Below are positions 3,679 through 46,379 of a stretch of 48,645 bases of DNA, one piece after another. How positions within the stretch are numbered: the stretch's first letter is position 1; every line of letters starts with the position of its first letter. Source of the stretch: a virus; IMG/VR virus record IMGVR_UViG_3300024518_000003, positions 1-48,645 of that record. The stretch is one strand, 5' to 3'. The position numbers and the translations under genes were made by a program. The notes under the pieces were generated by a model. That model did no database searches and was not told where the DNA came from. It saw nothing but the letters and a program-made list of their open reading frames with translations.

Positions 3679-4138
3679 TGTCCGCCCCGTCCGCTTCGGC
3701 CAGCATTGCTCGTAATCTGGCCATTTCGGCGTCATTGCCTTTGATCTCTTCAACCTTCGTGTGGACGTCCACATTTGCGGTCGATTCACCATCTTCCAAG
3801 CGGGCTTTATCGTACAAAATGCCAAACATTCCGGTCAGTTGGAAAGCGCTGGCTTCTTTGAGCTTTGCAGGCGTCAACGCCTTCATGACTTCCAGCTGTT
3901 TCGCGTGTACAATATCGCTCTTGTATTTCTTGAACGCGTGTACATCGTTCGAGCTGTCCCCCAGAAGCGGCTTCACCCGCTTCTGGACCGCTTGCCTGCT
4001 CACTCCTAAGATTTCCCCGATTTCCGCGTAAGACAAACCGTTCACCGATCGCAGCCGCAACGCGCGGTCAATATCAACCACATTTGACCGCCGCTGTATC
4101 TGTTCTGTTTCGTCTACTGTGGTAACGTCCTTACTCAT
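3668..4138 (-). CDS. HTH protein, probable terminase small subunit
   Basis: The N-terminal half carries a homeodomain-like helix-turn-helix (LSYAEIGEILGVSRQAVQKR, residues about 37-56). The C-terminal half has ASAFQLTGMFGILYDKARL, a pattern I associate with small terminase-like HTH proteins, then an acidic tail. TerS proteins bind the pac or cos site and feed DNA to TerL. The first gene of the packaging transcript is a plausible place for it. A longer frame to 4174 runs into the promoter, so ATG 4138 is chosen. That start has almost no 5' leader and no well-spaced Shine-Dalgarno. A transcription regulator is the main alternative. Confidence 0.7.
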   Translation of the reverse strand: MSKDVTTVDETEQIQRRSNVVDIDRALRLRSVNGLSYAEIGEILGVSRQAVQKRVKPLLGDSSNDVHAFKKYKSDIVHAKQLEVMKALTPAKLKEASAFQLTGMFGILYDKARLEDGESTANVDVHTKVEEIKGNDAEMARLRAMLAEADGADNDG

Positions 4139-4145
4139 ACTTCTA

Positions 4146-4174
4146 ATAGTACACGTGTACGCAAATCTTGTCAA
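4146..4174 (-). promoter_or_regulatory. Leftward promoter of the packaging/structural transcript
   Basis: On the minus strand, TTGACA (4174-4169) is followed by 17 bp and TACTAT (4151-4146). The -10 overlaps the first palindromic operator. The expected transcript start is at about 4139-4140, next to the ATG at 4138, so the mRNA may be leaderless. Confidence 0.6.
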
Positions 4175-4188
4175 TTATACACGTGTAC
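4149..4188. promoter_or_regulatory. Pair of palindromic operators GTACACGTGTAC
   Basis: A perfect 12-bp palindrome (4149-4160) and a second copy with one changed end base (4177-4188, ATACACGTGTAC) have centres 28 bp apart. One overlaps the leftward -10 and spacer; the other lies just upstream of the leftward -35 and about 20 bp upstream of the rightward -35. Nearly three helical turns between centres would suit cooperative binding of a dimeric repressor. Confidence 0.7.
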
Positions 4189-4208
4189 AAAAAAGATTGA
4201 TTAAAGTG

Positions 4209-4237
4209 TTGACACTAATCAAACGATATGGTTTAGT
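4209..4237 (+). promoter_or_regulatory. Rightward promoter of early block A
   Basis: TTGACA (4209-4214), 17-bp spacer, TTTAGT (4232-4237). The leader that follows is AT-rich and leads to AAGAAAGGG before the first gene. The -35 matches consensus exactly, and the -10 matches at 4 of 6 positions. Confidence 0.6.
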
Positions 4238-4282
4238 AAGAACAGATAACAACAAACAAACAACACAAGAAAGGGAATGAAA

Positions 4283-11602: not shown

Positions 11603-11762
11603 GCCAAGTCTCCTTCCACAAGTGGAACACCTGTAATAACAGTTCGTTAACCCTCTTTCCGCTATACTTGCCAGACTGTCGTATCAACCCCGCCAGGTGC
11701 GGGCCGTTGAACTCTCGGGTCCGCTTCGTCTCCTCCGTAAGTGCCCGCAATAGCCCGCTCAT
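11595..11762 (-). CDS. Hypothetical basic helical protein, 55 aa
   Basis: ATG 11762 overlaps the stop of the 141-aa gene in an ATGA junction. The product starts SGLLRALTEETKRTREFNGP and has many Arg and Lys, with a helical C-terminus (RVNELLLQVFHLWKETWHV). No motif recognised. Coding is supported by the stop-start overlaps on both sides. Confidence 0.6.
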   Translation of the reverse strand: MSGLLRALTEETKRTREFNGPHLAGLIRQSGKYSGKRVNELLLQVFHLWKETWHV

Positions 11763-12184
11763 TGCACACCTTCCAGATACTCCTCGAACACACCCTTGCC
11801 CGACATGAACTTGAGAGCAGACAGTGTGGCCCTCGTTCGACCTGGGTTGTTGCCCCGCTCCGTTTTAAGATAGTTCCCGTGTCGGGAGACTCCAAGAAGA
11901 TAGGCCATTTCGGAAGTGGACAGGCCTTTCGACTCTCGGAACCGTCGGAAGTCGGAGCCCCTCAGGTCTGTACAGTACCAAGGACACCATGTGTACTGTA
12001 CGAATAGCTTTTTCTCCAAGAGGAACATCACCGCACGAGCGGTAGCTTTCGTTACTTCGGGATATTTTTCAGGGCCCTTAGCCTTAGTGTTGTCGTACCC
12101 ATCCCGGGTCTCATACCCGAGTGCCCACCGTATGAAGCAGGGCGCGTGGCCCCACAATGACTCTAACTGTTCGAATGTAATCAT
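11759..12184 (-). CDS. Protein with two HTH-like modules, 141 aa
   Basis: Two related segments can be aligned. Residues about 14-62 contain FIRWALGYETRDGYDN followed by VTKATARAVMFLLEKKLFVQ. Residues about 86-138 contain GLSTSEMAYLLGVSRHGNYL followed by RTRATLSALKFMSGKGVFEEYLE. The second copy looks like a helix-turn-helix (S-x-x-E-M-A-x-x-L-G-V-S). The nearby 201-aa protein (12761-13366) has the same two-module plan. DNA binding is likely; the targets are unknown. ATG 12184 follows GGAGGG and overlaps the VRR-NUC stop. Confidence 0.75.
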   Translation of the reverse strand: MITFEQLESLWGHAPCFIRWALGYETRDGYDNTKAKGPEKYPEVTKATARAVMFLLEKKLFVQYTWCPWYCTDLRGSDFRRFRESKGLSTSEMAYLLGVSRHGNYLKTERGNNPGRTRATLSALKFMSGKGVFEEYLEGVQ

Positions 12185-14049: not shown

Positions 14050-14201
14050 TCGAACCTCCTTAGGTCACTTAAAGTTATGAGATCACGAAAGATACTGCCC
14101 AGAACCAAACCTATCGCAACGCCGTACCATTCTTCTCTTCCGGTAGACACCCAGAGTACTAATACCACCCAGTATGTCCCCCAGAACATCCAGTCTCTCA
14201 T
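14046..14201 (-). CDS. Small membrane protein, 51 aa
   Basis: ATG 14201 overlaps the helicase stop (ATGA). Two hydrophobic segments are visible: MFWGTYWVVLVLWVS and WYGVAIGLVLGSIF, separated by a charged turn (TGREE), suggesting a two-pass membrane hairpin. Such small holin-like proteins are common, but placement with the helicase argues against a simple lysis role. Confidence 0.6.
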   Translation of the reverse strand: MRDWMFWGTYWVVLVLWVSTGREEWYGVAIGLVLGSIFRDLITLSDLRRFE

Positions 14202-15829
14202 TTGTCCCCCAATATCCGGCCAGTTAGCGCGTTAGCGTCCACGGCCTTTAATGTCTGGGCGGTTAGAACGTCTACCCCAAAGGTGTGGTAAAACCGCCGT
14301 TGTGCCGTCGATCTGTCTTGACCTTCGGCCTTCTTCTGCCCGCCCCAAGCCTGCATTGCCTCCAGTAAGATCGACTGTGCAGCCTGAGTCTTTTCGTGCC
14401 GTTTAACGCCTGCCAACACACCTATGTGTGGCACACACCTGCCCTCGAGTTCAGCTTTGACTTCGGCTGAACTCCGGTTTACTCTCGCCACCTCCCCTCT
14501 CAACCGAGCAAGAGCTTCTCCGCTCAGTTCAATTAGATCTCCGTCGACAAACTCCGGAGCGGATCGTTCGACAGGCTCCGGGATATATCCACATTCGGGA
14601 CATCCTTTATGTATTCTCTCGTATGCTGCAGTGCATTCCGGACAGCTTGTGAGAGGAACTACACCCTCTAAACTTGCTGTGCGTTTCTGCCTACGGTCCA
14701 GGGACCATTCCCGAAGAGTGTCGGGGAGGCCGAACCCCGGCCGGGTTGTGTTCCCGACATGGTCTATTATGATGGCGTGGTCTTTTCCGGGGAATGGCCT
14801 CAGCGCTCGCCCAAACTGCTGACTGTACAGAGCGAAAGATTGTGTTGGCCTCGCGAACGAGACGACCGATATTGCAGGAAGGTCGAACCCTTCTCCGAAC
14901 AAGTCCACATTGCAGAGCTGCAATAGCTCACCCTTCGCCAGTTTCCGGATGCAGGACGTACGCTTACGGTCAGGAGTACCCCCGTCGAGGGACTCCGCAG
15001 GCACCCCCGCTGCTCTGTAGTCATGGGCTAGTTGCTCTGACAGTTCGACCGAAGGGGCGAAGGTGACTCCCCGTAACCCCGCAGCATGTTTGAGGTAATG
15101 CCCGACCACGCAACCCACGACGTCACTGCGTTTGACAGCGTCTGCAGCAGAACGCTGGGTGAAGTCCCCGTTCACCCCAGTCTTGAGCCCCGTCAGATCT
15201 AGAGACGAGGACGGCGCGTATATCCGGTAATCTGTCAAGAACCCTGCTCGTGTGAGCTCCCGCATGTTGGGGCCGATGACCAGGCCGTCGAATACTCCGT
15301 CTGTCTCACGGCTTAACCCTCTCCCGTCTGCACGGCACGGTGTGGCGGTCACGCCCAACCCGTACTGAGCATTGCGGAATAGAGCTGTGGCCTTACCCCA
15401 CTTGTTCTTAGTCTGTACATGATGGGCCTCATCGATCACCCAGAACTGTACCCGATCAGCCCATGCCTTTCGCCATTCGGGCAGTCGGATCAGGGTATCC
15501 ACACCTGCAACAGATACTGGTGCTCCACCAGAGTGGTAGTTCTTACCCGTATGTTCGACGTGTAAGTCTACGCAGAGTTTTACGACTGGATCCGGGGCGG
15601 TAATGTCGTGTCTTATCCCGCACTTAGCCAGCGCCAGAGAGATCTGGGATACCAGCTCTTGCCTGTGCGCGATGGCGCAGGTCCGGAGACCCATCCTACG
15701 GATCGTGTCCGCCATCAGGACAGTCTTTCCGGCACCGGTAGGCATGACCAGCATCTGGTTCTGGACCCCTGCCTTCCAAGCAGCAATTAGCTCTTGTTGG
15801 GCATCTATTTGATACTGGCGCAGCTCCAC
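14198..15829 (-). CDS. SF2 DEAH-type DNA helicase with C-terminal zinc ribbon
   Basis: This ATP-driven helicase or translocase has 543 residues. Motif I is MPTGAGKT (29-36), motif II DEAH (133-136), motif III GVTATP, and motif VI QQFGRALRP. A zinc ribbon follows the second RecA domain (CPECTAAYERIHKGCPECG, near 405-423). The architecture is that of phage DEAD/DEAH helicases found beside VRR-NUC nucleases, DUF2815 proteins and Pol A. A likely role is opening or remodelling DNA in replication or recombination. The start ATG 15829 overlaps the 61-aa HTH gene by 25 bp. Confidence 0.9.
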   Translation of the reverse strand: MELRQYQIDAQQELIAAWKAGVQNQMLVMPTGAGKTVLMADTIRRMGLRTCAIAHRQELVSQISLALAKCGIRHDITAPDPVVKLCVDLHVEHTGKNYHSGGAPVSVAGVDTLIRLPEWRKAWADRVQFWVIDEAHHVQTKNKWGKATALFRNAQYGLGVTATPCRADGRGLSRETDGVFDGLVIGPNMRELTRAGFLTDYRIYAPSSSLDLTGLKTGVNGDFTQRSAADAVKRSDVVGCVVGHYLKHAAGLRGVTFAPSVELSEQLAHDYRAAGVPAESLDGGTPDRKRTSCIRKLAKGELLQLCNVDLFGEGFDLPAISVVSFARPTQSFALYSQQFGRALRPFPGKDHAIIIDHVGNTTRPGFGLPDTLREWSLDRRQKRTASLEGVVPLTSCPECTAAYERIHKGCPECGYIPEPVERSAPEFVDGDLIELSGEALARLRGEVARVNRSSAEVKAELEGRCVPHIGVLAGVKRHEKTQAAQSILLEAMQAWGGQKKAEGQDRSTAQRRFYHTFGVDVLTAQTLKAVDANALTGRILGDK

Positions 15830-15990
15830 TTAACCCCCCTTTTGATGTGGCTTATCAATGATTCATGAACGTCATAGTCTTTGGCGATCAGGACTTGCTT
15901 CTCGCCTTTGCTGACGCGTCGGAGAATCTCTTTAACGTCCTCCGACGACAGCTTGGATAGCTTGTTGTTGTCCCCTGTTGGGTACGTCAC
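15805..15990 (-). CDS. Small HTH protein, 61 aa
   Basis: The start is GTG 15990, overlapping the previous stop in a GTGA junction. Residues 11-52 (NKLSKLSSEDVKEILRRVSK, then AKDYDVHESLISHIKRG) match the helix-turn-helix seen at one end of phage HNH proteins and resolvases, here without a nuclease domain. DNA binding is likely; it may regulate or recruit the helicase encoded just downstream. Confidence 0.7.
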   Translation of the reverse strand: MTYPTGDNNKLSKLSSEDVKEILRRVSKGEKQVLIAKDYDVHESLISHIKRGVKWSCASIK

Positions 15991-16199
15991 GACTGTAAGT
16001 CTCCCTTCAGATCTACCTTCATGTCTATACCCCCAAATTTAAGTGCCAATTCACGCCTATGTTTGTACCTGTCCGTCTTCGCTACGAACCGGGTGCAAGA
16101 CCGACAGGGAGGGGGCCTTTGGTCCCGGAGCGGTCGACCGGACGTTATGAGGAGGTACGTACTATAATGTTCACATGTGTTACATTTGATCTCGCTCAT
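15987..16199 (-). CDS. Zinc-binding early protein, 70 aa
   Basis: I chose ATG 16199, which follows AAAGGAGAAGCACC in the mirrored leader; a longer frame to 16412 would cross the promoter. The product begins MSEIKCNTCEHYSTYLL and has PPPCRSCTRFVAKTDRY, two Cys pairs that can form one zinc site. It is the first gene of block B. Function unknown. Confidence 0.75.
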   Translation of the reverse strand: MSEIKCNTCEHYSTYLLITSGRPLRDQRPPPCRSCTRFVAKTDRYKHRRELALKFGGIDMKVDLKGDLQS

Positions 16200-16230
16200 G
16201 GTGCTTCTCCTTTCCGTTTGATCTGTTCTC

Positions 16231-16259
16231 ACCCTAACGGAAAAATTGTGACTCGTCAA
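16231..16259 (-). promoter_or_regulatory. Leftward promoter of block B
   Basis: On the minus strand, TTGACG (16259-16254), 17-bp spacer, TAGGGT (16236-16231). It mirrors the rightward promoter. The expected start is about 16224, giving a 25-base leader. Confidence 0.65.
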
Positions 16260-16267
16260 GATTTTTC

Positions 16268-16296
16268 TTGACTTGTCAAGATCGGTTCGGTAGGGT
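16268..16296 (+). promoter_or_regulatory. Rightward promoter of block C
   Basis: TTGACT (16268-16273), 17-bp spacer, TAGGGT (16291-16296). The -10 has only three consensus matches, so an activator or a phage-modified polymerase may be needed. Confidence 0.65.
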
Positions 16297-16329
16297 GAGA
16301 ACAGATCAAACGGAAAGGAGATATACACA

Positions 16330-18357
16330 ATGTTTGAAGAGTTCAGAAATCTCGTAGGTACTAAAGTAGAACAAATGATGAGCAGCCACGCCACCCTGTA
16401 CGTAGTGGACATTCCTAAAGAGAAACTGTGGGATCATTACCTTCAGAGTTTTCCTCCAGGTACGAACCCTATGTTCCGGCAGCGCACGGAACACGATTGT
16501 TCGACGTGTCGATCGTTCATAAGGAGGATGGGCAGAGTCGTCGCTATTGAGGACGGGAAGTTGGTCAGTATCTGGGACGTGATGCGTGCTGGCCTTACGT
16601 ACCAGCCAGTGGCCGACAGCATGGCGGAGCTGGTAAAGTCTGCAAAGATCGCAGCTCCGTTCTTCTCTAAGGAAAGGAACATAGGCCATGCAGAGAACCT
16701 TGAGGACGTGGAGAAGGGGCGGATACGTTGGACACACTATCACGCCAAGGTAGCTCCTATGTTTGTCACAGGCAGTGTGGGAGCATCGGTTGGTGAGTTC
16801 ATCGGGAGACATACTGTGCTGAAGGGGTCTTTACGTAAAATATCAGGAGAGGCAGTGGAGGAGGTCTTGGAGCTGATCGAAGAGGAGAGGCTGTATAAAG
16901 GTACGGAATGGCTTGGGGCATTGACTGCTTTTCTAGCTCTCCGTAAGAACTGGGTGGAGCTAGGCGGTGCGGCTAAAGAGCTATTCGAGTGGGACGCGGC
17001 GGCGTCGGTGGCCGGTAGCGCAATCGCGCACATGAAGAACCTTTCAATCGGTACCCTCCTGGTCGACGTGACAGAGGGTGTGGTCATGGAGGAAGCAGTA
17101 CGGAAGTACGAGAATATCGTAGCTCCAAGCAACTATAAGCGCCCCAAGGAGATTTTCACAAAAGCGACACTGGAGAAGGCCAAGCTGAAGCTCGATGAGC
17201 TCGGCCTTAGCAAGTCATATGGCCGCATGTCCGCGACAACATACAGCGTGCCGGTGGCGGGAGTATTCTATTCAGACACGAAGTACACAAGCCCAGAGCT
17301 AGATGTATTCGAAGAGCTGGGGAAAGATGTTCAGATCTCCGATAAGATGATCCGGAACGCCACGCCGATCAAGATCATAAAGTTTCTATGCCTGCCAGAA
17401 CTCAGGTCTGGAGGATTGGAGATACTGGTAGAGCCCAGATTGACCAAGAATTTCGTGTCTTTGGTAGGGCCATCCGACCCTGACGCTAAGCCCATCACTA
17501 AGTGGGACAACAATATCACCTGGGCGTATGTAGGTAACCTTGCCGACTCTGGCATCAAAGATGCGGTCAGAGACGCAGGAGGGAAAGTAGATGGAGTCCT
17601 GCGATTCTCTCTTAGCTGGAATGAGAACGGAGACTGCAACGACGATCTCGATGCTCACTGCATAGAGCCCTGCGGGAACGTCATATACTACAGTAACAGT
17701 ACCAACCGTAACACGACTGGCGTGCTGGACATCGACATAACGAACCCCGAGACTCAGTGTAAGGGAGGCCAGGCAGTAGAGAATATAACTTGGTCGGATG
17801 AGTCGAAGATGCTCGAAGGAAAGTACGAATTCAAGGTCCACAACTTCGAAAAGAAAGGGGGGCTAAGTGGATTTAACGCAGAGCTAGAATACGGCGGAGA
17901 AGTTCTCCACTACTCCTGGCCCTCTCCTCTAACGAACAGGGAGAAGGTAAGCGTGGTCACCCTCCGGTTTACGCCGCACAAAGGGATTGAGGTGCTGTCA
18001 AGTATTGCTGGAGGTGCGAGCAGCAGCGTCGAGATATGCGGTCTTAAGACACGAACGTTTAGACGAGTCACCAGAGGCATGATGTCCCCCAACTACTGGG
18101 GCGGTCAGCGCTTTGGCAGTAGACACTATATGTTTATGCTCGAAGGGTGTAAGATAGACGAAAGGCTGAACGGGTTCTTTAACGAATTCCTCCCGACGGA
18201 ACTGCTAGAGCACAAGAGAGTATTTGCGGCCCTCGGGTCAAAGATGAAAGTTACTCCTTCAGACGACCAACTGTCTGGAGTAGGGTTTAACGAGACGGTT
18301 AGAAACCATTTTATCTGTCGGTTGAAATCCGGCAAAATTATGAAAGTAGAGGTGTAG
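16330..18357 (+). CDS. Large early protein with DUF2135/YfaP-like domain, 675 aa
   Basis: This is the first gene of block C, with a strong leader (AAAGGAGATATACACA then ATG). The N-terminus has EHDCSTCRSFIRRMG (near 56-70), a Cys/His site. Residues 430-560 have LRFSLSWNENGDCNDDLDAH, then GNVIYYSN, ENITW, GKYEFKVHNF and GEVLHYSW. These resemble a YfaP/DUF2135 beta-sandwich with acidic, possibly calcium-binding residues. The middle is helical. I do not know its role. It is conserved-looking and probably made in quantity early in infection. Confidence 0.75.
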   Translation: MFEEFRNLVGTKVEQMMSSHATLYVVDIPKEKLWDHYLQSFPPGTNPMFRQRTEHDCSTCRSFIRRMGRVVAIEDGKLVSIWDVMRAGLTYQPVADSMAELVKSAKIAAPFFSKERNIGHAENLEDVEKGRIRWTHYHAKVAPMFVTGSVGASVGEFIGRHTVLKGSLRKISGEAVEEVLELIEEERLYKGTEWLGALTAFLALRKNWVELGGAAKELFEWDAAASVAGSAIAHMKNLSIGTLLVDVTEGVVMEEAVRKYENIVAPSNYKRPKEIFTKATLEKAKLKLDELGLSKSYGRMSATTYSVPVAGVFYSDTKYTSPELDVFEELGKDVQISDKMIRNATPIKIIKFLCLPELRSGGLEILVEPRLTKNFVSLVGPSDPDAKPITKWDNNITWAYVGNLADSGIKDAVRDAGGKVDGVLRFSLSWNENGDCNDDLDAHCIEPCGNVIYYSNSTNRNTTGVLDIDITNPETQCKGGQAVENITWSDESKMLEGKYEFKVHNFEKKGGLSGFNAELEYGGEVLHYSWPSPLTNREKVSVVTLRFTPHKGIEVLSSIAGGASSSVEICGLKTRTFRRVTRGMMSPNYWGGQRFGSRHYMFMLEGCKIDERLNGFFNEFLPTELLEHKRVFAALGSKMKVTPSDDQLSGVGFNETVRNHFICRLKSGKIMKVEV

Positions 18358-18736: not shown

Positions 18737-19424
18737 ATTTGAGGTAGGTAACGACCCATTTATGATGAAGGTAGTAGCGAAGGGCTTGGAAGTGATGGCC
18801 GAAGAGCTCGCAAAGAGACCGGTGCCGACATTCGGGCCGAAGGTGTTCGGCAGTGTCGTGGAGGGGCCCGCCGTAGAGGGCGCGGAACCATCTGAGGACG
18901 TACTGGTGCCGAGCCAGGCCCCGAAGGCCGGTGACTCCGTATTGCACATGAGGCCCACAGGAGGTGAGGCTGCACCCCTCGCAGAAGAGCCCGAGGACAG
19001 CGTTGTCTCCGGGGCTGATGTCGACTCTGCAGGAGTGCCTTGGGACAGCCGCATCCACAGCGGTTCTCAAAAGACCTTGGCTAAGAGCGGGCAATGGAAG
19101 AAGAAACGCTATGTCAGTCCGGAGGTGGTCGAGAAGGTAGAAGCAGAGCTGCTCGCAGCTCGTCCCGCTCTCGCTGGACAGACGGCCACGCCCTCAGCAG
19201 CGCCGCCCCCTCCGCCTCCCGTGCCGGGCACTGAGGGTGCTCCCGCCCCTCCCGTGAGCTTCATGGACCTCTTGCGGGCCATAACGGACCGGGCGATTAG
19301 TCCGGACGTTGTAGCGAAGGCAGCGTCGCACTGCGGCCTGGGCAGTCTCATTGAGGCTAACGGGAAGGATGAGATTGTGTCCATACTATACGGTATCTTG
19401 ATCAACGGAGAGGCGGTAATATGA
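18729..19424 (+). CDS. Phage replication-cassette protein with VDxxGxPWDxRIHS motif, 231 aa
   Basis: Residues about 97-130 contain DVDSAGVPWDSRIHSGSQ and GQWKKKRYVSPEVV, a motif seen in many phage proteins next to DUF2800 and DUF2815 genes. Before it lies a low-complexity Pro/Glu/Gly region, and after it a proline run (PPPPPPVPG) and a folded C-terminus. It overlaps both neighbours by 4-8 bp. A scaffold or DNA-binding role in replication or recombination is inferred from context only. Confidence 0.7.
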   Translation: MIKFEVGNDPFMMKVVAKGLEVMAEELAKRPVPTFGPKVFGSVVEGPAVEGAEPSEDVLVPSQAPKAGDSVLHMRPTGGEAAPLAEEPEDSVVSGADVDSAGVPWDSRIHSGSQKTLAKSGQWKKKRYVSPEVVEKVEAELLAARPALAGQTATPSAAPPPPPPVPGTEGAPAPPVSFMDLLRAITDRAISPDVVAKAASHCGLGSLIEANGKDEIVSILYGILINGEAVI

Positions 19425-20509
19425 CAGGCAAGCCCACACCATCCTCGGCGCACAACTGGGGAGGGCAGGACGGATGTACAGCGTTCGTAAGCATGCACGC
19501 AAAGTATCCCGACCTCTCAGACCGGACGAAAGCTGAAGAGGGAATCGCTGCCCATAAGGCTGCAGCGGCTATGCTCTTAGGGACACCTCCGCCAGAGGAG
19601 ATGGACCCAGAGACTGTGGCCAAGCTGCAGACGTATGTGTCCGATGTACAGACGATGTCGAAGGGGCAGGAGATCCATGTTGAAGAGAAAATAACGTGCT
19701 CCAGGATCCACCCGGAATCGGAAGGCTATATAGATGTGTGGTCCTTCGTCCCCGAAGATGGAACATTGTACATTTGGGACCTGAAATGGGGCAACACCAT
19801 CGTAGACGCGTTCGAATTCTTACAGGGTATCTGTTATGCAGGTGGGCTTCTGGAGAGGATAGGCATGCCAGAACATAAGGTTCTCGTTCAGATCAGGATC
19901 GTCCAGCCTAACTCCTGGCTAACGTCAGATCCCATATCGACGTGGACTGTCCGTGCTGAGAACCTACGGCCTTATATTAACCAGCTTGAGACTGCAGCGC
20001 ATGAAGCCATGTCGGATTCACCAACCGCCAGATCCGGACCTCAGTGCCTGCAGTGTAACGCGAGGCATGATTGCCAGACCTCAGTGTCTGCAGGGGTCCG
20101 AATGTTCGAAGCGGCCTCTGAACCCACACCCTTAGACCTGACGCCCGAGGCGTTAGGGAAGCAGTTGAAGTTCGTGCGTAGAGCTTGTAAACAGCTCGAG
20201 GCGATCAAGGCGTCGACCGAGCAGCACGTTAACAGCCTTGTTGCAGCGGGAGAATCTGTCCCTGGTTGGGAGCTGTCGCCTCAGACCTCTCGTGAGAAAT
20301 GGACCGCACCCACGCAGATAGTAGAAGAATTAGGCACTTTGTTGGGTCTGAAGCTCACCAAGATCGCACCCGTAACCCCTAACCAAGCTCGGGCTCTTGG
20401 GATTCCAGAAGACTTATTGGCGATGTATTCCAGGAGGCCCAAAGCGACGTACAAACTAACTGAAATTGACGCAAAGAAACGATTCAGAAAGGGAGAATTA
20501 ACGATATGA
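19421..20509 (+). CDS. DUF2800-type PD-(D/E)XK nuclease, 362 aa
   Basis: The N-terminus SAHNWGGQDGCTAFVSMHAK and AEEGIAAHKAAAAMLLG match the DUF2800 start. EEKITC, GYIDVW and YIWDLKWGN supply the D and D-x-K active-site pattern of a Cas4/RecB-like nuclease. A Cys cluster near residue 207-216 (CLQCNARHDC) may bind a metal or Fe-S cluster. It probably trims DNA ends together with the downstream ssDNA-binding protein. It overlaps the preceding gene by 4 bp (ATGA). Confidence 0.85.
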   Translation: MTGKPTPSSAHNWGGQDGCTAFVSMHAKYPDLSDRTKAEEGIAAHKAAAAMLLGTPPPEEMDPETVAKLQTYVSDVQTMSKGQEIHVEEKITCSRIHPESEGYIDVWSFVPEDGTLYIWDLKWGNTIVDAFEFLQGICYAGGLLERIGMPEHKVLVQIRIVQPNSWLTSDPISTWTVRAENLRPYINQLETAAHEAMSDSPTARSGPQCLQCNARHDCQTSVSAGVRMFEAASEPTPLDLTPEALGKQLKFVRRACKQLEAIKASTEQHVNSLVAAGESVPGWELSPQTSREKWTAPTQIVEELGTLLGLKLTKIAPVTPNQARALGIPEDLLAMYSRRPKATYKLTEIDAKKRFRKGELTI

Positions 20510-21324
20510 AAGAATTCACGACCGGGGCCGGAAGGCTCGTACAAGGGCACGTATTCAACGGAAAGACAACGAACCGTAAGGGAGAGCCCCTGAAGAACAG
20601 GAAGGGCGAACCCCGAACGGACTATTTCTTCGCCATCGCTATCCGGAAGGACGACCCATCAGCACAGCAATTGATCAATATGATAGAGGGTGTGGCTAAG
20701 GAAGCGTTCCCCAACATGTTCGGGGCGGATGGTAGATGTACGATCCCGAAGTTCAGTTTCAAGTATGTGGACGGAGACAGCACACTCCCCAACGGAGAGG
20801 GGAAGAAACCCTGTGATACTGAGGGGTTTCCAGGTTGTTACGTATTCAAGTTCGCAACCTGTCTTAGAGCGCCTAGCGTCTATAACAAAGGGTTCACTCA
20901 GCTCATAACGGACCCTAACGGGATAAAAAAAGGAGATTACATCCAAGTGAACGGGACTGTCAAGGGGAACAGTACTCCCTCAGATCCGGGTGTGTACCTC
21001 AACCCCGATGGAGTACAGTTCCTCGCGTACGGAGAAGCGATCACATCAGTAGCGGACTTTGACCCTGCCAAAGCGTTTAGCGCCCCCGTTACATTACCTC
21101 CGGGAGCGTCCGAGACTCCGTTAGCAGCAGAAGCACCCACGGCAGCAGCCGGAGCCGCAAGCCCTCCGCCTCCAGACCCAAACTTCACGGAGATACCGCC
21201 ACCTCCTGCTGCCCCGGACGAGAATAGGATCATCGACGTAGGAGGACAGCCATACGCCTACAGCACCTTGAAGAAAGCAGGATGGTCTGACGTACAGATC
21301 GCTAAGTACGACGTACCATCGTAA
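20506..21324 (+). CDS. DUF2815-type single-stranded DNA-binding protein, 272 aa
   Basis: The core (residues 1-185) has VFNGKTTNRKGEPLKNRKG, DYFFAIAIRKDDPSA, GCYVFKFATCLRAPSVY and GDYIQVNGTVKGN, which read as an OB-fold protein of the DUF2815 family. Residues 200-250 are a Pro/Ala linker, and the end (GGQPYAYSTLKKAGWSDVQI) is a small C-terminal module. It should coat ssDNA during phage replication. ATG 20506 overlaps the nuclease stop. Confidence 0.85.
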   Translation: MKEFTTGAGRLVQGHVFNGKTTNRKGEPLKNRKGEPRTDYFFAIAIRKDDPSAQQLINMIEGVAKEAFPNMFGADGRCTIPKFSFKYVDGDSTLPNGEGKKPCDTEGFPGCYVFKFATCLRAPSVYNKGFTQLITDPNGIKKGDYIQVNGTVKGNSTPSDPGVYLNPDGVQFLAYGEAITSVADFDPAKAFSAPVTLPPGASETPLAAEAPTAAAGAASPPPPDPNFTEIPPPPAAPDENRIIDVGGQPYAYSTLKKAGWSDVQIAKYDVPS

Positions 21325-21332
21325 ACAGTACC

Positions 21333-21360
21333 AAGTCCCGGCTCGCGCGAGCCGGGACTT
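21333..21360 (+). other. 28-bp perfect palindrome before the polymerase gene
   Basis: The arms AAGTCCCGGCTCGC and GCGAGCCGGGACTT form a very stable stem with little or no loop. It is transcribed between the SSB-like and polymerase genes and ends 2 bases before the polymerase Shine-Dalgarno (AGGAGG). No U-run follows. Confidence 0.9.
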
Positions 21361-21374
21361 CAGGAGGTGACACA

Positions 21375-23546
21375 GTGGAAGCCATGAAGAGGATATCTCT
21401 CGACATAGAGACTTACTCCGAAGCAGGGTACAAGTTCGAGGATGGCAAATGGTGCAGTGCTATGAAGAGCAAGCCTGGACTCCGAGCAGTAGGTGCGTAC
21501 GTGTACACCAAGCACCCTAGTGCGGACGGACTGTGCTTCGCATACGGCACGGACAGACTTACACTATGGGTAGCCGGTATGGGAGCCCCGACGGACCTCC
21601 TCGACCACATCAGTAGCGGTGGCTTGGTGGAGGCATGGAACAGCATCTTCGAATTCTGGGGATGGAACAACATCTTCGCACGACAGCATGGTTGGCCCGA
21701 GCTGACTCTCGAGCAGATGAGGGACACCAAGGCCCGTTCAGCGGCGATGTCGTATCCTCTGGCGCTCGGAGATGCCTCTAAGATTCTGACCCCCGGCACG
21801 GCTAAACTGGCGGAGGGCAGGACCCTGATCAAGAGGTTCTGCGTCCCGAGGACCCCGACCAAACACAACAAAGCCCAGCGGATCCACCCCTCTGAGGACC
21901 CGGTTAAAGGACCTCGGTTCTGGGCATACAACATCCGCGACGTGGAGGCAGAGTACGCCATCGGCAGTATGCTTCCGGAGCTGTCAGAACAAGAGCTTAA
22001 GGTCTGGCAGTGCGACCAGCAGATCAATGATAGGGGTGTCAAGATCGACACGGACCTCCTGGCTTGCTGTAAGGAAGTGGTTGAAGGTGCATTCGAAGAC
22101 CACACAAAGGCACTGATCGAAGTGACAGGAGGTGCAGTTCGGACAGTGTCTGAGATCGATCGATTCAGTACGTGGCTGGCGAAGTCAGGGTACCCCATGC
22201 CTTCTATAGATAAGGACCACGTGACTGAAGCACTGGAGGACCCGGACCTACCTAAGGAGTGCCGTAAGGCTCTGGAAATACGTCAGATTCTCGGTTCATC
22301 GAGTGTTAAGAAGCTGTACGCTATCGAACACATGCTTGGATCGGACGGGAGGCTCCGTGGCCTGTTCGAGTACTGTGGTGCTCTTCGGACGGGGCGATGG
22401 TCTGGCAGAGGGCCACAACCTCAGAACCTCCCAGGCAGCGGGCCAGGAGTTGTAGTTTGCCCAGGATGTAATCGAGTAATCGGAAAGGACCCGTTCCAGA
22501 GTCTCTGTCCGAGCTGCCATAAGAACCGTGGTAACGACCCTAAGTGGGATCATACGGTCGTAAAAGCTGCGATTAGAGCCATTGAGTCGAAAGACCATAG
22601 ATTGGTCGCGCTTCTGTTTAGAGACGCCGTATCGGCGGTCTCCGGCTGCCTCAGGGCACTGTTCGTTGCCGCTGACGGCCATGAGCTTATGTGCTCAGAC
22701 TACAGCGCGATCGAAGCTGTGGTATTAGCCGTGCTGGCAGGAGAGACGTGGAGGCAGGAGGTCTTCCGGACACACGGCATGATCTATGAGATGTCCGCCA
22801 GTAAGATAACTGGCATACCCTTCCAGGAGTTCTTGGACCATAAGGAACAAACGGGAGAGCACCACCCGATGCGTAAGAAGATAGGGAAGGTTGCTGAACT
22901 CGCAGGAGGGTATGGCGGCGGGGTCGGTGCGTATCTTGCTTTCGGTGCGGATAAATTCATAGGCTCGGACGAAAAGATCAAGGAAGTTGTGTACAAGTGG
23001 CGTGAAGAGAACTCGATGATAGTCAGGTACTGGGACGAGATAGAAGTCGTGGCCACACAAGCTATACAACACCCCGGTCGAGAGTTCGCATATCGCGGTA
23101 TTACTTTCGTTCGAGACGCCGCAACAGACGTACTCAAGTGCAGGCTGCTTTCAGGGAGACACATATGTTACGCATCTCCTAAGATCCTACCTAAAAGAAC
23201 CCCTTGGGGCACCATCACGGATCAGATAACGTACATGGGGTGGAACACCAACGAGCGGAAGGGGCGCAGAGGCTGGACCCGTCTCAGCACCTGGGGTGGT
23301 AAGCTAACGGAGAATATAACACAGGCAGTGGCTAGAGACATAATGGCCTACGCCATAGTACGGCTAGAAGAGGAGGGGTTTCGAGTGGTACTTCACGTGC
23401 ATGACGAGGTGTGCTGTGAGATACTACGCGGCTCAAGGACGATAGAGGAACTAGAATCAATAATGTCAACGATGCCCTACTGGGCCCAAGGCTGGCCAGT
23501 GAAGGCGAGAGGAGGATGGTGTGGAAGACAATATAGGAAAGATTGA
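21375..23546 (+). CDS. Family A DNA polymerase with 3'-5' exonuclease
   Basis: This is the phage replicative polymerase (723 aa). The exonuclease domain opens with ISLDIETYSE (Exo I, D10/E12). Polymerase motif A is DYSAIEA (D442), motif B lies in RKKIGKVAELAGGYGGG (about 504-520), and motif C is HVHDEV (D677). Between exonuclease and palm there is a zinc ribbon (C362, C365, C378, C381) that I do not expect in bacterial Pol I. The start is GTG 21375, 7 bases after AGGAGG; an in-frame ATG follows at codon 4. It works with the primase-helicase and SSB-like protein. Confidence 0.95.
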   Translation: MEAMKRISLDIETYSEAGYKFEDGKWCSAMKSKPGLRAVGAYVYTKHPSADGLCFAYGTDRLTLWVAGMGAPTDLLDHISSGGLVEAWNSIFEFWGWNNIFARQHGWPELTLEQMRDTKARSAAMSYPLALGDASKILTPGTAKLAEGRTLIKRFCVPRTPTKHNKAQRIHPSEDPVKGPRFWAYNIRDVEAEYAIGSMLPELSEQELKVWQCDQQINDRGVKIDTDLLACCKEVVEGAFEDHTKALIEVTGGAVRTVSEIDRFSTWLAKSGYPMPSIDKDHVTEALEDPDLPKECRKALEIRQILGSSSVKKLYAIEHMLGSDGRLRGLFEYCGALRTGRWSGRGPQPQNLPGSGPGVVVCPGCNRVIGKDPFQSLCPSCHKNRGNDPKWDHTVVKAAIRAIESKDHRLVALLFRDAVSAVSGCLRALFVAADGHELMCSDYSAIEAVVLAVLAGETWRQEVFRTHGMIYEMSASKITGIPFQEFLDHKEQTGEHHPMRKKIGKVAELAGGYGGGVGAYLAFGADKFIGSDEKIKEVVYKWREENSMIVRYWDEIEVVATQAIQHPGREFAYRGITFVRDAATDVLKCRLLSGRHICYASPKILPKRTPWGTITDQITYMGWNTNERKGRRGWTRLSTWGGKLTENITQAVARDIMAYAIVRLEEEGFRVVLHVHDEVCCEILRGSRTIEELESIMSTMPYWAQGWPVKARGGWCGRQYRKD

Positions 23547-23637: not shown

Positions 23638-23825
23638 TGCCACAGGACTGGCACGAAGTATCCAAGACTCTGACAGTGGAGTGTGATAAATGCGGGGACA
23701 CTGTGAGGGCCTGCGGGGACACCATGGTGGAGGCGTGGGAATACCTAGAAGGTCTCGGGTGCGTCGCGCACTATTGCACCGCCCAAGGGCTGTTCCTCTA
23801 TTACTGTATGGATTGTGAGGGGTAG
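23637..23825 (+). CDS. Zinc-binding protein, 62 aa
   Basis: Two Cys pairs enclose the fold: VECDKCGDTVRACGD near residue 15 and YYCMDCEG at the C-terminus. The middle has MVEAWEYLEGLGCVAHYC, so it may form a small zinc ribbon with a helix between the pairs. It starts at ATG 23637, coupled to the 38-aa gene, and ends at a strong stem-loop. Confidence 0.65.
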   Translation: MPQDWHEVSKTLTVECDKCGDTVRACGDTMVEAWEYLEGLGCVAHYCTAQGLFLYYCMDCEG

Positions 23826-23867
23826 ATACAGTCGGAGGTCGTCCTCGTAACACCTCCGACTGTATCT
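23824..23867 (+). other. 16-bp perfect stem-loop after the polymerase cluster
   Basis: AGATACAGTCGGAGGT (23824-23839) pairs exactly with 23852-23867 around a 12-base loop. No U-run follows. A second, shorter repeat (CAGGCC ... GGCCTG, about 23880-23915) sits before the next gene. It separates the replication genes from small distal genes and may limit read-through or shape mRNA decay. Confidence 0.85.
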
Positions 23868-23931
23868 GGAGATATACACAGGCCTGACTATACGGGGATT
23901 TCGAGGGCCTGTCAAGTAGGAAGGAGACAGT

Positions 23932-24644: not shown

Positions 24645-25040
24645 ATGAAGTTTAAAGGCGTTAAAAAAGGCGACAAGGTGTTTTTGATAGAGGCCACCAG
24701 TGCCGGATGGGGAAGCGAGGTTTTTTTTATCCCAAAAGAAGTCACTCACGTAACGCCAAAGAGGTTCCATGTGGGGCCTGTGACCTACAAAAGGGACAAC
24801 GGGAGACAGCTTGGTGACTATTGGAATAGGGCCCTCTTGGAGGGTGAGGATTACCACGGCAACGTGGTAAGGGACCAGACCAAAGAGCGTGACGAGCTCA
24901 AGAAAAAGTTGGAAGGCGCCAGGAGAGCCGAAGGTATCTTTGAAGAAGCGGCCCGTGCAGTTGGGCATGACACCAAAAACCTGGACAAAGTACTGGAGCT
25001 AGCCATCGAGATAGAGCGGCTATTGGAGGAAACAGTATGA
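24645..25040 (+). CDS. Hypothetical protein with small beta domain and helical tail, 131 aa
   Basis: ATG 24645 follows GAGGAAACAGT. Residues 1-70 look like a small SH3-like beta barrel (GVKKGDKVFLIEATSAGWGS, then VTYKRDNGRQLGDYW). Residues 80-131 are charged and helical. No function recognised. Confidence 0.65.
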   Translation: MKFKGVKKGDKVFLIEATSAGWGSEVFFIPKEVTHVTPKRFHVGPVTYKRDNGRQLGDYWNRALLEGEDYHGNVVRDQTKERDELKKKLEGARRAEGIFEEAARAVGHDTKNLDKVLELAIEIERLLEETV

Positions 25041-45171: not shown

Positions 45172-46050
45172 TTATATAAGCCCTTCACAGTTTTTTAAGT
45201 AGTCTGCTTCATCTTCAAACACGCCGTCGACGATGTACTGCCTGGCCTGCGCCTGCATGTCCTTCGGCAGGTCTCTCAGTGTGGTCTTTCTATTCGGAAC
45301 CCGCGTCCCTCTCAGACCTGGCGAGTCTACGGCCGAGGGGGCGTCTTTGTTCGGATTCTTAAATTTATGTTGGAACGTACCGCGCACCCTATCTTCTACC
45401 GCTTGGTAGAACTGAGCGTTGGTCATTTGACCTAGTTGTCCAGACTGTAACCGCTGGGCGATATCGTTCGCAGCGAACTTGGCGTAATCTCCCAGTTCCT
45501 GGTCTTTATCATACCAGTCATTCCGTGCTTTAAATGCGGTAAACTCCGGTATCTCTGCAGGAGCGGCAGGTGCTACCGGTTCCGGCTTCTCGAGCTTGGC
45601 CTTATCTTCTTCCAGCTTCTGCCAGGAATCGACATCACTATTCTCAACCGCAAGTTTCTGCTCGGCCAAGATATCAGCGTGAGCCTTCTCATAGGCTCGC
45701 TCGGCAGCTTTGCCAGATACCTTCAGTAACTTCTGGGTCACTTCCTTCTGGCTCTCCAGTTCGGCTTGGAGAGTGCCAATAGTGCCCTCGTACTTCTTGA
45801 GCCTGCTTTTGATGATCGGAATAACGGTTTCTCCCCGCCTAACATACTCTTCAGGAGTTACTGGCCGATCGCCTTTGTAGTCCTCGCGGTACCCCATCTC
45901 CTTGGCACGTTCAAGAGTCTTAGCTTCCACCTGTTCCTGCTCGGAAGGTACTTGCTCTTGCTCGGGGGTCTGCAGTTCTTGCCCTTGCTCGGGGGTCTGC
46001 AGTTCTTGCCCTTGCTCGGGGGTCTGCAGTTCTTGTCCTTGCTCTGTCAT
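45172..46050 (-). CDS. Scaffolding protein (probable), 292 aa
   Basis: The protein is acidic and helical throughout, with EYVRRGETVIPIIKSRLKKY, a coiled coil (TLQAELESQKEVTQKLLKVS), and a C-terminal RDLPKDMQAQARQYIVDGVF. Position directly before decoration and coat genes fits a scaffold. Residues 3-32 are a nine-residue repeat (EQGQELQTP, three copies). It overlaps the GroES-like gene stop (ATGA). Confidence 0.75.
   Translation of the reverse strand: MTEQGQELQTPEQGQELQTPEQGQELQTPEQEQVPSEQEQVEAKTLERAKEMGYREDYKGDRPVTPEEYVRRGETVIPIIKSRLKKYEGTIGTLQAELESQKEVTQKLLKVSGKAAERAYEKAHADILAEQKLAVENSDVDSWQKLEEDKAKLEKPEPVAPAAPAEIPEFTAFKARNDWYDKDQELGDYAKFAANDIAQRLQSGQLGQMTNAQFYQAVEDRVRGTFQHKFKNPNKDAPSAVDSPGLRGTRVPNRKTTLRDLPKDMQAQARQYIVDGVFEDEADYLKNCEGLI
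45961..46041. repeat. 27-bp tandem repeat, three copies
   Basis: Copies at 45961, 45988 and 46015 are nearly identical (one base differs in the last). They keep the frame and encode the nonapeptide repeat at the N-terminus of the scaffold. Confidence 0.95.
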
Positions 46051-46379
46051 TCTAGCCCCGCTTTCCCGTCCAGGATCATGAGGAGGTCTGTATCGTGCAT
46101 CAACCGCATGATCGTTCGCCCTATATTGAAGATCTTACCTTTGTTCTTGTCTATCATGACTCTATCCCCGACTTTCGGGTGGGGCAAAGGTCGATCGTCA
46201 AAACATCCACCTCCCAGGGCCACGACTGTGCCTGAATCGGTTCGGTACGTGTTACTCTCAATTACAGAAGCGGGCAACAATAACGCACCTCTCTTCTCGT
46301 CCTCTCGGTCGGGTTGAATCAGCACTTTATATGCTGTCGGCCGGTACTGTGTAGCGTCTACTAACTTGTTTTCTCGCAT
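46047..46379 (-). CDS. GroES-like co-chaperonin, 110 aa
   Basis: The Cpn10 pattern is visible: PTAYKVLIQPDREDEKRGAL (core strand), a gap at the mobile-loop position (PASVIESNTYRTD), SGTVVALGGG, then VGDRVMIDKNKG and a C-terminal strand LLMILDG. Phage co-chaperonins such as T4 gp31 replace GroES to fold the coat protein. The gene lies just upstream of scaffold and coat, which agrees. The roof-type insert (CFDDRPLPHPK) differs from bacterial GroES. Overlaps with both neighbours suggest coupled synthesis. Confidence 0.8.
   Translation of the reverse strand: MRENKLVDATQYRPTAYKVLIQPDREDEKRGALLLPASVIESNTYRTDSGTVVALGGGCFDDRPLPHPKVGDRVMIDKNKGKIFNIGRTIMRLMHDTDLLMILDGKAGLE

Follow-up and report, generated by a model that had tools for sequence, protein, structure and literature searches.

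A predicted mirror-image divergent promoter region between two replication operons of a 48-kb phage

Results

The DNA analyzed here (the window) is the whole of virus record IMGVR_UViG_3300024518_000003, 48,645 nucleotides in length, which carries a 127-base terminal repeat and is therefore most likely a complete circular genome. An inverted repeat at positions 16206 to 16321 separates two operons that run away from it. The leftward operon (- strand) encodes a 70-amino acid protein with two CxxC pairs (15987 to 16199), for which no relative was found, a 61-amino acid helix-turn-helix (HTH) protein that may be a regulator (15805 to 15990; phrog_517 HTH DNA binding protein, E = 4.9e-6), a DNA helicase (14198 to 15829; phrog_16, E = 1.6e-84; PF04851/PF00271), an endonuclease-like protein, and a primase. 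The rightward operon (+ strand) is headed by a 675-amino acid phage protein (16330 to 18357; phrog_1735, E = 1.4e-206) and continues with an exonuclease, a Gp2.5-like SSB, and a family A DNA polymerase (19421 to 23546; phrog_69, phrog_7011, and phrog_17). Judged by content, both operons serve replication and recombination and would be expressed early.

The phrog_1735 protein has counterparts in 456 phage records at an identity of ∼40%; many of these are large-genome phages, whereas here its gene comes first in a probably early operon of a phage of 48 kb. No match to the helicase is carried by the relatives of the structural module, many of whose records are fragments, and the phage therefore looks mosaic. 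Elsewhere in the window, a 149-amino acid protein (2100 to 2549) contains a Tad2-like domain associated with Thoeris anti-defense (PF11195, E = 2.1e-23), a GroES-like co-chaperonin is encoded at 46047 to 46379 (PF00166, E = 2.4e-7), and a 131-amino acid protein (24645 to 25040) scores just above the cut-off for Pfam PF24203 (phage ProQ C-terminal-like) and may be a phage RNA-binding protein. A terminator-like hairpin at ∼23810 to 23885 is followed by GGAGATATACACA, the same 13 nucleotides as are found around the rightward Shine-Dalgarno sequence at 16317.

The two 31-bp arms of the repeat, at 16206 to 16236 (left, - strand) and 16291 to 16321 (right, + strand), are exact reverse complements (31/31), as had originally been predicted. 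A perfect inverted repeat of this length and spacing would be expected ∼1e-12 times in 48.5 kb by a simple 4^-31 estimate, so the arms are not a chance occurrence. The symmetry runs on inward, giving arms of 56 nucleotides with 84% identity and a 4-nucleotide gap, such that the whole 116 bp forms a quasi-palindrome. Each arm spans a predicted -10 element, discriminator, leader, and Shine-Dalgarno sequence. The exact arm sequence was not found in viral contigs, and searches of phages and plasmids with the repeat region gave no significant match.

A short centre enclosed by perfect inverted repeats could also reflect an invertible promoter, the ends of a mobile element, or an artifact of chimeric assembly, but these origins are largely excluded by the surrounding sequence. 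The flanks (GGTGCT and TATACA) are not repeated, so that there is no target-site duplication, and the repeat is single copy, neither of which fits a transposon or MITE. Gene order is as in relatives, and both adjacent genes have correctly spaced starts. No recombinase or integrase was found among the proteins scanned; a host enzyme could in principle act on an invertible promoter.

As single-stranded DNA, the 116 nucleotides are predicted to fold with an energy of -46.5 kcal/mol (z = -14.4), and none of 200 shuffled sequences folded as well. This very strong fold, together with a change in the sign of the GC skew at the repeat, would suit a cruciform, replication origin, or recombination site that acts as DNA structure and not as twin promoters. 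Such a role is very improbable given that the skew change tracks gene orientation, that the arms end exactly at the Shine-Dalgarno sequences of both genes, and that the palindrome is absent from relatives with the same replication genes.

The predicted leftward promoter comprises a -35 element, TTGACG, at 16254 to 16259 (- strand) and, 17 bp away, a -10 element, TAGGGT, at 16231 to 16236 (- strand). Its rightward counterpart has TTGACT at 16268 to 16273 and, at the same spacing, TAGGGT at 16291 to 16296 (both + strand). The -35 elements were called by consensus match, and TAGGGT matches the -10 consensus at three of six positions. The promoters stand back to back with their -35 elements 8 bp apart (GTCAA-N8-TTGAC). 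Predicted transcription starts at 16224 (-) and 16303 (+) are 79 bp apart, and the -10 elements do not overlap. On both sides the Shine-Dalgarno sequence is GGAAAGGAG, preceding ATG codons at 16330 (+) and 16199 (-). The coordinates thus bear out the initial description of these elements on each side.

Each promoter scores 8/12 to consensus and is omitted by a standard scan with a threshold of 9/12; ∼90 sites genome-wide score at least 8/12. Because TAGGGT is weak and such scores are common, the promoter call rests on context, namely position and comparison with relatives. The elements were assigned by hand; automatic best-pair promoter calling misassigned them.

The original prediction held that the two messages begin with the same 25 or so bases. 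Their leaders are indeed identical, but the shared transcribed part is shorter, ∼19 nucleotides (AGAUCAAACGGAAAGGAGA), when the usual start 7 nucleotides past the -10 element is assumed. The further suggestion that a single trans-acting RNA controls both messages found no support: the best other match or complement to the arm in the genome reaches no more than 20/31, no Rfam family matched within 8 to 26 kb, and fold prediction indicates that the leader RNA is unstructured.

The 54-bp centre contains the three GTCAAGA half-sites noted at the outset (16255 to 16261, +; 16266 to 16272, -; 16275 to 16281, +), but these are better read as two dyads, each lying over a -35 element. The perfect dyad TCTTGACTTGTCAAGA (16266 to 16281) covers the rightward -35 element, and the imperfect dyad TTGTGACTCGTCAAGA (16246 to 16261), which matches the right dyad at 13 of 16 positions, covers the leftward one. 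Both are candidate operators on the basis of sequence, and they are 20 bp apart centre to centre. Dispersed operators of the stoperator type, suggested by GTCAAG, were considered and rejected, as the perfect dyad occurs only here in the genome; the several operator copies that mark a lambda- or L5-like region are accordingly lacking. Among the proteins scanned, HTH proteins are encoded, including one at 11759 to 12184, none of which is a recognized repressor, and no characterized repressor family was found. No protein of the window corresponds to the TetR-like regulators annotated in SppYZU01, Scuro, JD001, and CP-T1.

A third early promoter is predicted at 4209 to 4247 (+ strand), where TTGACA-17-TTTAGT is followed by AAGAACAGAT, with 9 nucleotides in register with the arms. 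The element common to this promoter and the arms, AGAACAGAT, lies in the same register after the -10 element, and at this position the ∼90 other promoter-like sites share no more than 4 nucleotides with it. That AGAACAGAT is repeated in register at an independent promoter suggests that this part of the arm, at least, is functional. The third promoter lies in a second divergent region (4126 to 4277), in which a leftward TTGACA-17-TACTAT promoter is flanked by two TACACGTGTA palindromes, one over the spacer and -10 element and the other upstream of the -35 element. This leftward promoter drives a gene for a sigma-region-4-like HTH protein, possibly a small terminase or a regulator.

The in-register AGAACAGAT and the dyads over both -35 elements, with HTH genes present in the leftward operon, raise the question of whether the arms are simply the site of one regulator, be it a phage repressor or activator that binds between -10 and +20 or a repressor of translation acting on the identical leaders, with selection for that site alone preserving the identity. 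We regard this as unlikely. A stretch of 31 bp that includes the Shine-Dalgarno sequence exceeds the usual single site, the third promoter shares only part of the arm, and neither the unstructured leader RNA nor the scan for repressor families points to such a regulator.

For comparison, relatives of the helicase (mostly ∼47 to 54% identity) were gathered from viral contigs, phages, and genomes (loci L003 to L311), and after dereplication 118 regions lying upstream of the helicase gene were examined. No close relative of the phage was present in the collections searched. In most helicase relatives, the helicase operon and an exonuclease/SSB operon likewise diverge from a short intergenic region. 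Spans of the form TTGAC...GTCAA cluster at 41 to 44 bp in the 118 regions (57 observed versus 0.65 expected in shuffles), which argues that a divergent promoter is conserved at this position. These pairs correspond to two facing, interlocked promoters with predicted starts 28 to 30 bp apart, and would make a compact two-way promoter in their own right. The window shares the divergent sigma70-type -35/-10 pairs between helicase and exonuclease/SSB operons; its geometry is back to back and not the commoner face-to-face arrangement, and it lacks the 41- to 44-bp span. A TTGAC-N6-GTCAA dyad is also enriched in the relatives (15 versus 0.05 expected); this is due in part to promoter geometry, and we do not claim it as an operator.

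The inverted repeat of the window was present in none of the 118 dereplicated relatives, and a search with a promoter-plus-AGAACA pattern gave two matches, about chance level. Related phages with the same genes and no repeat had been named in advance as evidence against the prediction. This proved true in part: helicase, exonuclease, SSB, and divergent promoter all occur without the repeat, but the same relatives also lack the two genes that directly flank it. The broader proposal, a mirror-image divergent promoter region serving two opposing early operons through identical sense leaders, is supported at the level of sequence, with a predicted divergent promoter kept in many relatives.

Six loci have back-to-back promoters: the window, L101, L087, L098, L062, and L063. 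Identity between the spacers of paired promoters was 13/17 in L101, 12/17 in L098, 10/17 in L087, and 9/17 in the window, against a cross-locus mean of 5.1; L062 (6/17) and L063 (4/17) showed little twinning. The within-locus total was matched by 2 of 720 permutations, or by 2 of 120 when the window was omitted. In L101 and L087, respectively, CGCCAACTGTCTGTAT and TTTAGGTTGTAAATTA occur at the spacer end plus -10 element of both promoters, and neither motif has another exact match in its own genome, the best others having three mismatches. The promoter pairs of L101, L087, and L098 are alike within each locus yet unrelated to those of the window, which suggests that twin promoters arose several times with different sequence. 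Perfect inverted repeats of at least 14 bp number four at these divergent promoters versus seven in 899 kb elsewhere; one of the four, at L126, consists mostly of Shine-Dalgarno sequence plus -35 element.

In an earlier set of 42 loci, the mirror score of the window was 34 and the next best 14.5. Outward arms of the face-to-face relatives were alike at 7.90 of 25 positions within a locus versus 7.12 of 25 between loci (p = 0.0008, rising to 0.035 after correction for composition). Mirror identity in these relatives thus goes little beyond the elements they share, so concerted evolution is not a general feature, and its extension to the face-to-face class was rejected given the small effect. 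The possibility that the arms derive from the exo-side leader of L081 was likewise set aside, the resemblance being suggestive only (p ∼0.05).

Within the window, the two halves agree at 9 of 17 spacer positions, at all 14 positions after the -10 element, and throughout the 31-bp arm. Constraint on the -10 element, leader, and Shine-Dalgarno sequence fits this pattern of differing spacers and invariant arms; if a whole half had been copied, the arm would have been preserved as the spacer diverged. By contrast, the identity would be functionless if 31 bp of promoter-leader had been copied in inverted orientation by a recent template switch and had not had time to diverge. The absence of any difference in 31 bp and the restriction of the repeat to this phage are as such an event would leave them, template switching makes copies of this kind, and the matched bases of the centre could be merely functional -35 sites. 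We nonetheless consider neutral duplication somewhat unlikely. The centre is mirror-related too (dyads 13/16, spacer 9/17), suggesting an older and longer copy, an independent promoter also carries AGAACAGAT, and twinning is seen again in other back-to-back relatives.

Discussion

The original prediction offered recent duplication or selection as alternatives for the origin of the arms, and that pairing still holds. Constraint is indicated by arms of 31/31 beside spacers of 9/17 and by AGAACAGAT at the third promoter; duplication or homogenization is indicated by the recurrence of twin promoters in L101, L087, and L098, where the sequences are unrelated. Template switching is described as homogenizing the arms of imperfect inverted repeats in two reports (PMC8604942, PMC8794818). 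The interpretation that we favor, and hold to be reasonably probable, is that the locus is a divergent early promoter whose halves were twinned by inverted duplication or template-switch homogenization, so that the two operons would have identical start signals and be controllable at a single point.

Under this favored interpretation, the region would be the divergent early control region of the phage, with two back-to-back promoters of the host sigma70 type, the leftward one serving the helicase/primase operon and the rightward one the recombination/polymerase operon. It would descend from a two-way early promoter kept at the same place across a large phage group. We infer that one promoter-leader-Shine-Dalgarno unit was copied inverted to the other side, or that the two sides were equalized by replication template switching. 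Host polymerase could then use either promoter. Given that the -10 element, discriminator, first ∼19 transcribed nucleotides, and Shine-Dalgarno sequence are identical, transcription initiation and translation would be expected to proceed at similar rates for the two operons. Because the -35 elements are adjacent, a single protein spanning both dyads could shut down both promoters, and the dyads together with AGAACAGAT at the third early promoter would allow joint control of all these promoters by one putative regulator.

Counted against this interpretation are the weak TAGGGT elements, the lack of a close relative, and the little spacer identity at L062 and L063; a one-time recent duplication without selection also fits the arms, taken alone, nearly as well. 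A wider proposal is possible but distinctly tentative: that in this phage group, template switching between short inverted elements has repeatedly turned the two halves of the early control region into mirror twins. Opposing operons would then have promoters, leaders, and ribosome sites that undergo concerted evolution, changing in sequence but remaining equal in strength. If twins are maintained in this way, a phage could coordinate two opposing early operons by simple means, with a single start signal and a single ribosome site each used twice and refreshed by copying between inverted arms, and concerted evolution of regulatory DNA would become directly testable.

Among known systems, the same position upstream of a related helicase in L101, L087, and L098 offers paired promoters that are strongly alike. 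The shared part there is the spacer plus -10 element, perfect over no more than 16 bp, whereas in the window it is the -10 element, leader, and Shine-Dalgarno sequence over 31 bp. Lambda-type and Staphylococcus aureus phage switch regions (PMC3991615, PMC8516035) resemble the window in divergent early transcription, here predicted, and in dyad operators, here candidates, over promoter elements. Unlike those switch regions, the window yielded no repressor/antirepressor pair or integrase, and it seems to have an early replication operon on either side. Bacterial bidirectional promoters, studied by Warman, Grainger, and colleagues (PMC12825309, PMC10268837), are pseudo-symmetric DNA transcribed both ways between divergent genes, at which one polymerase can block the other, and the window is like them in its predicted two-way starts and in its pseudo-symmetric DNA between divergent genes. 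They are defined by starts 7 to 25 bp apart, most commonly 18 bp, and by reciprocally overlapping -10 elements (PMC10268837). The face-to-face relatives, at 28 to 30 bp, fall just outside this definition; the window, with predicted starts 79 bp apart and separate -10 elements, falls well outside it, its symmetry lying in the sequence identity between two separate promoters and their leaders. The two-way early promoter is thus already known as a kind, and the form found in the window is an unusually symmetric one made of two separate twin promoters.
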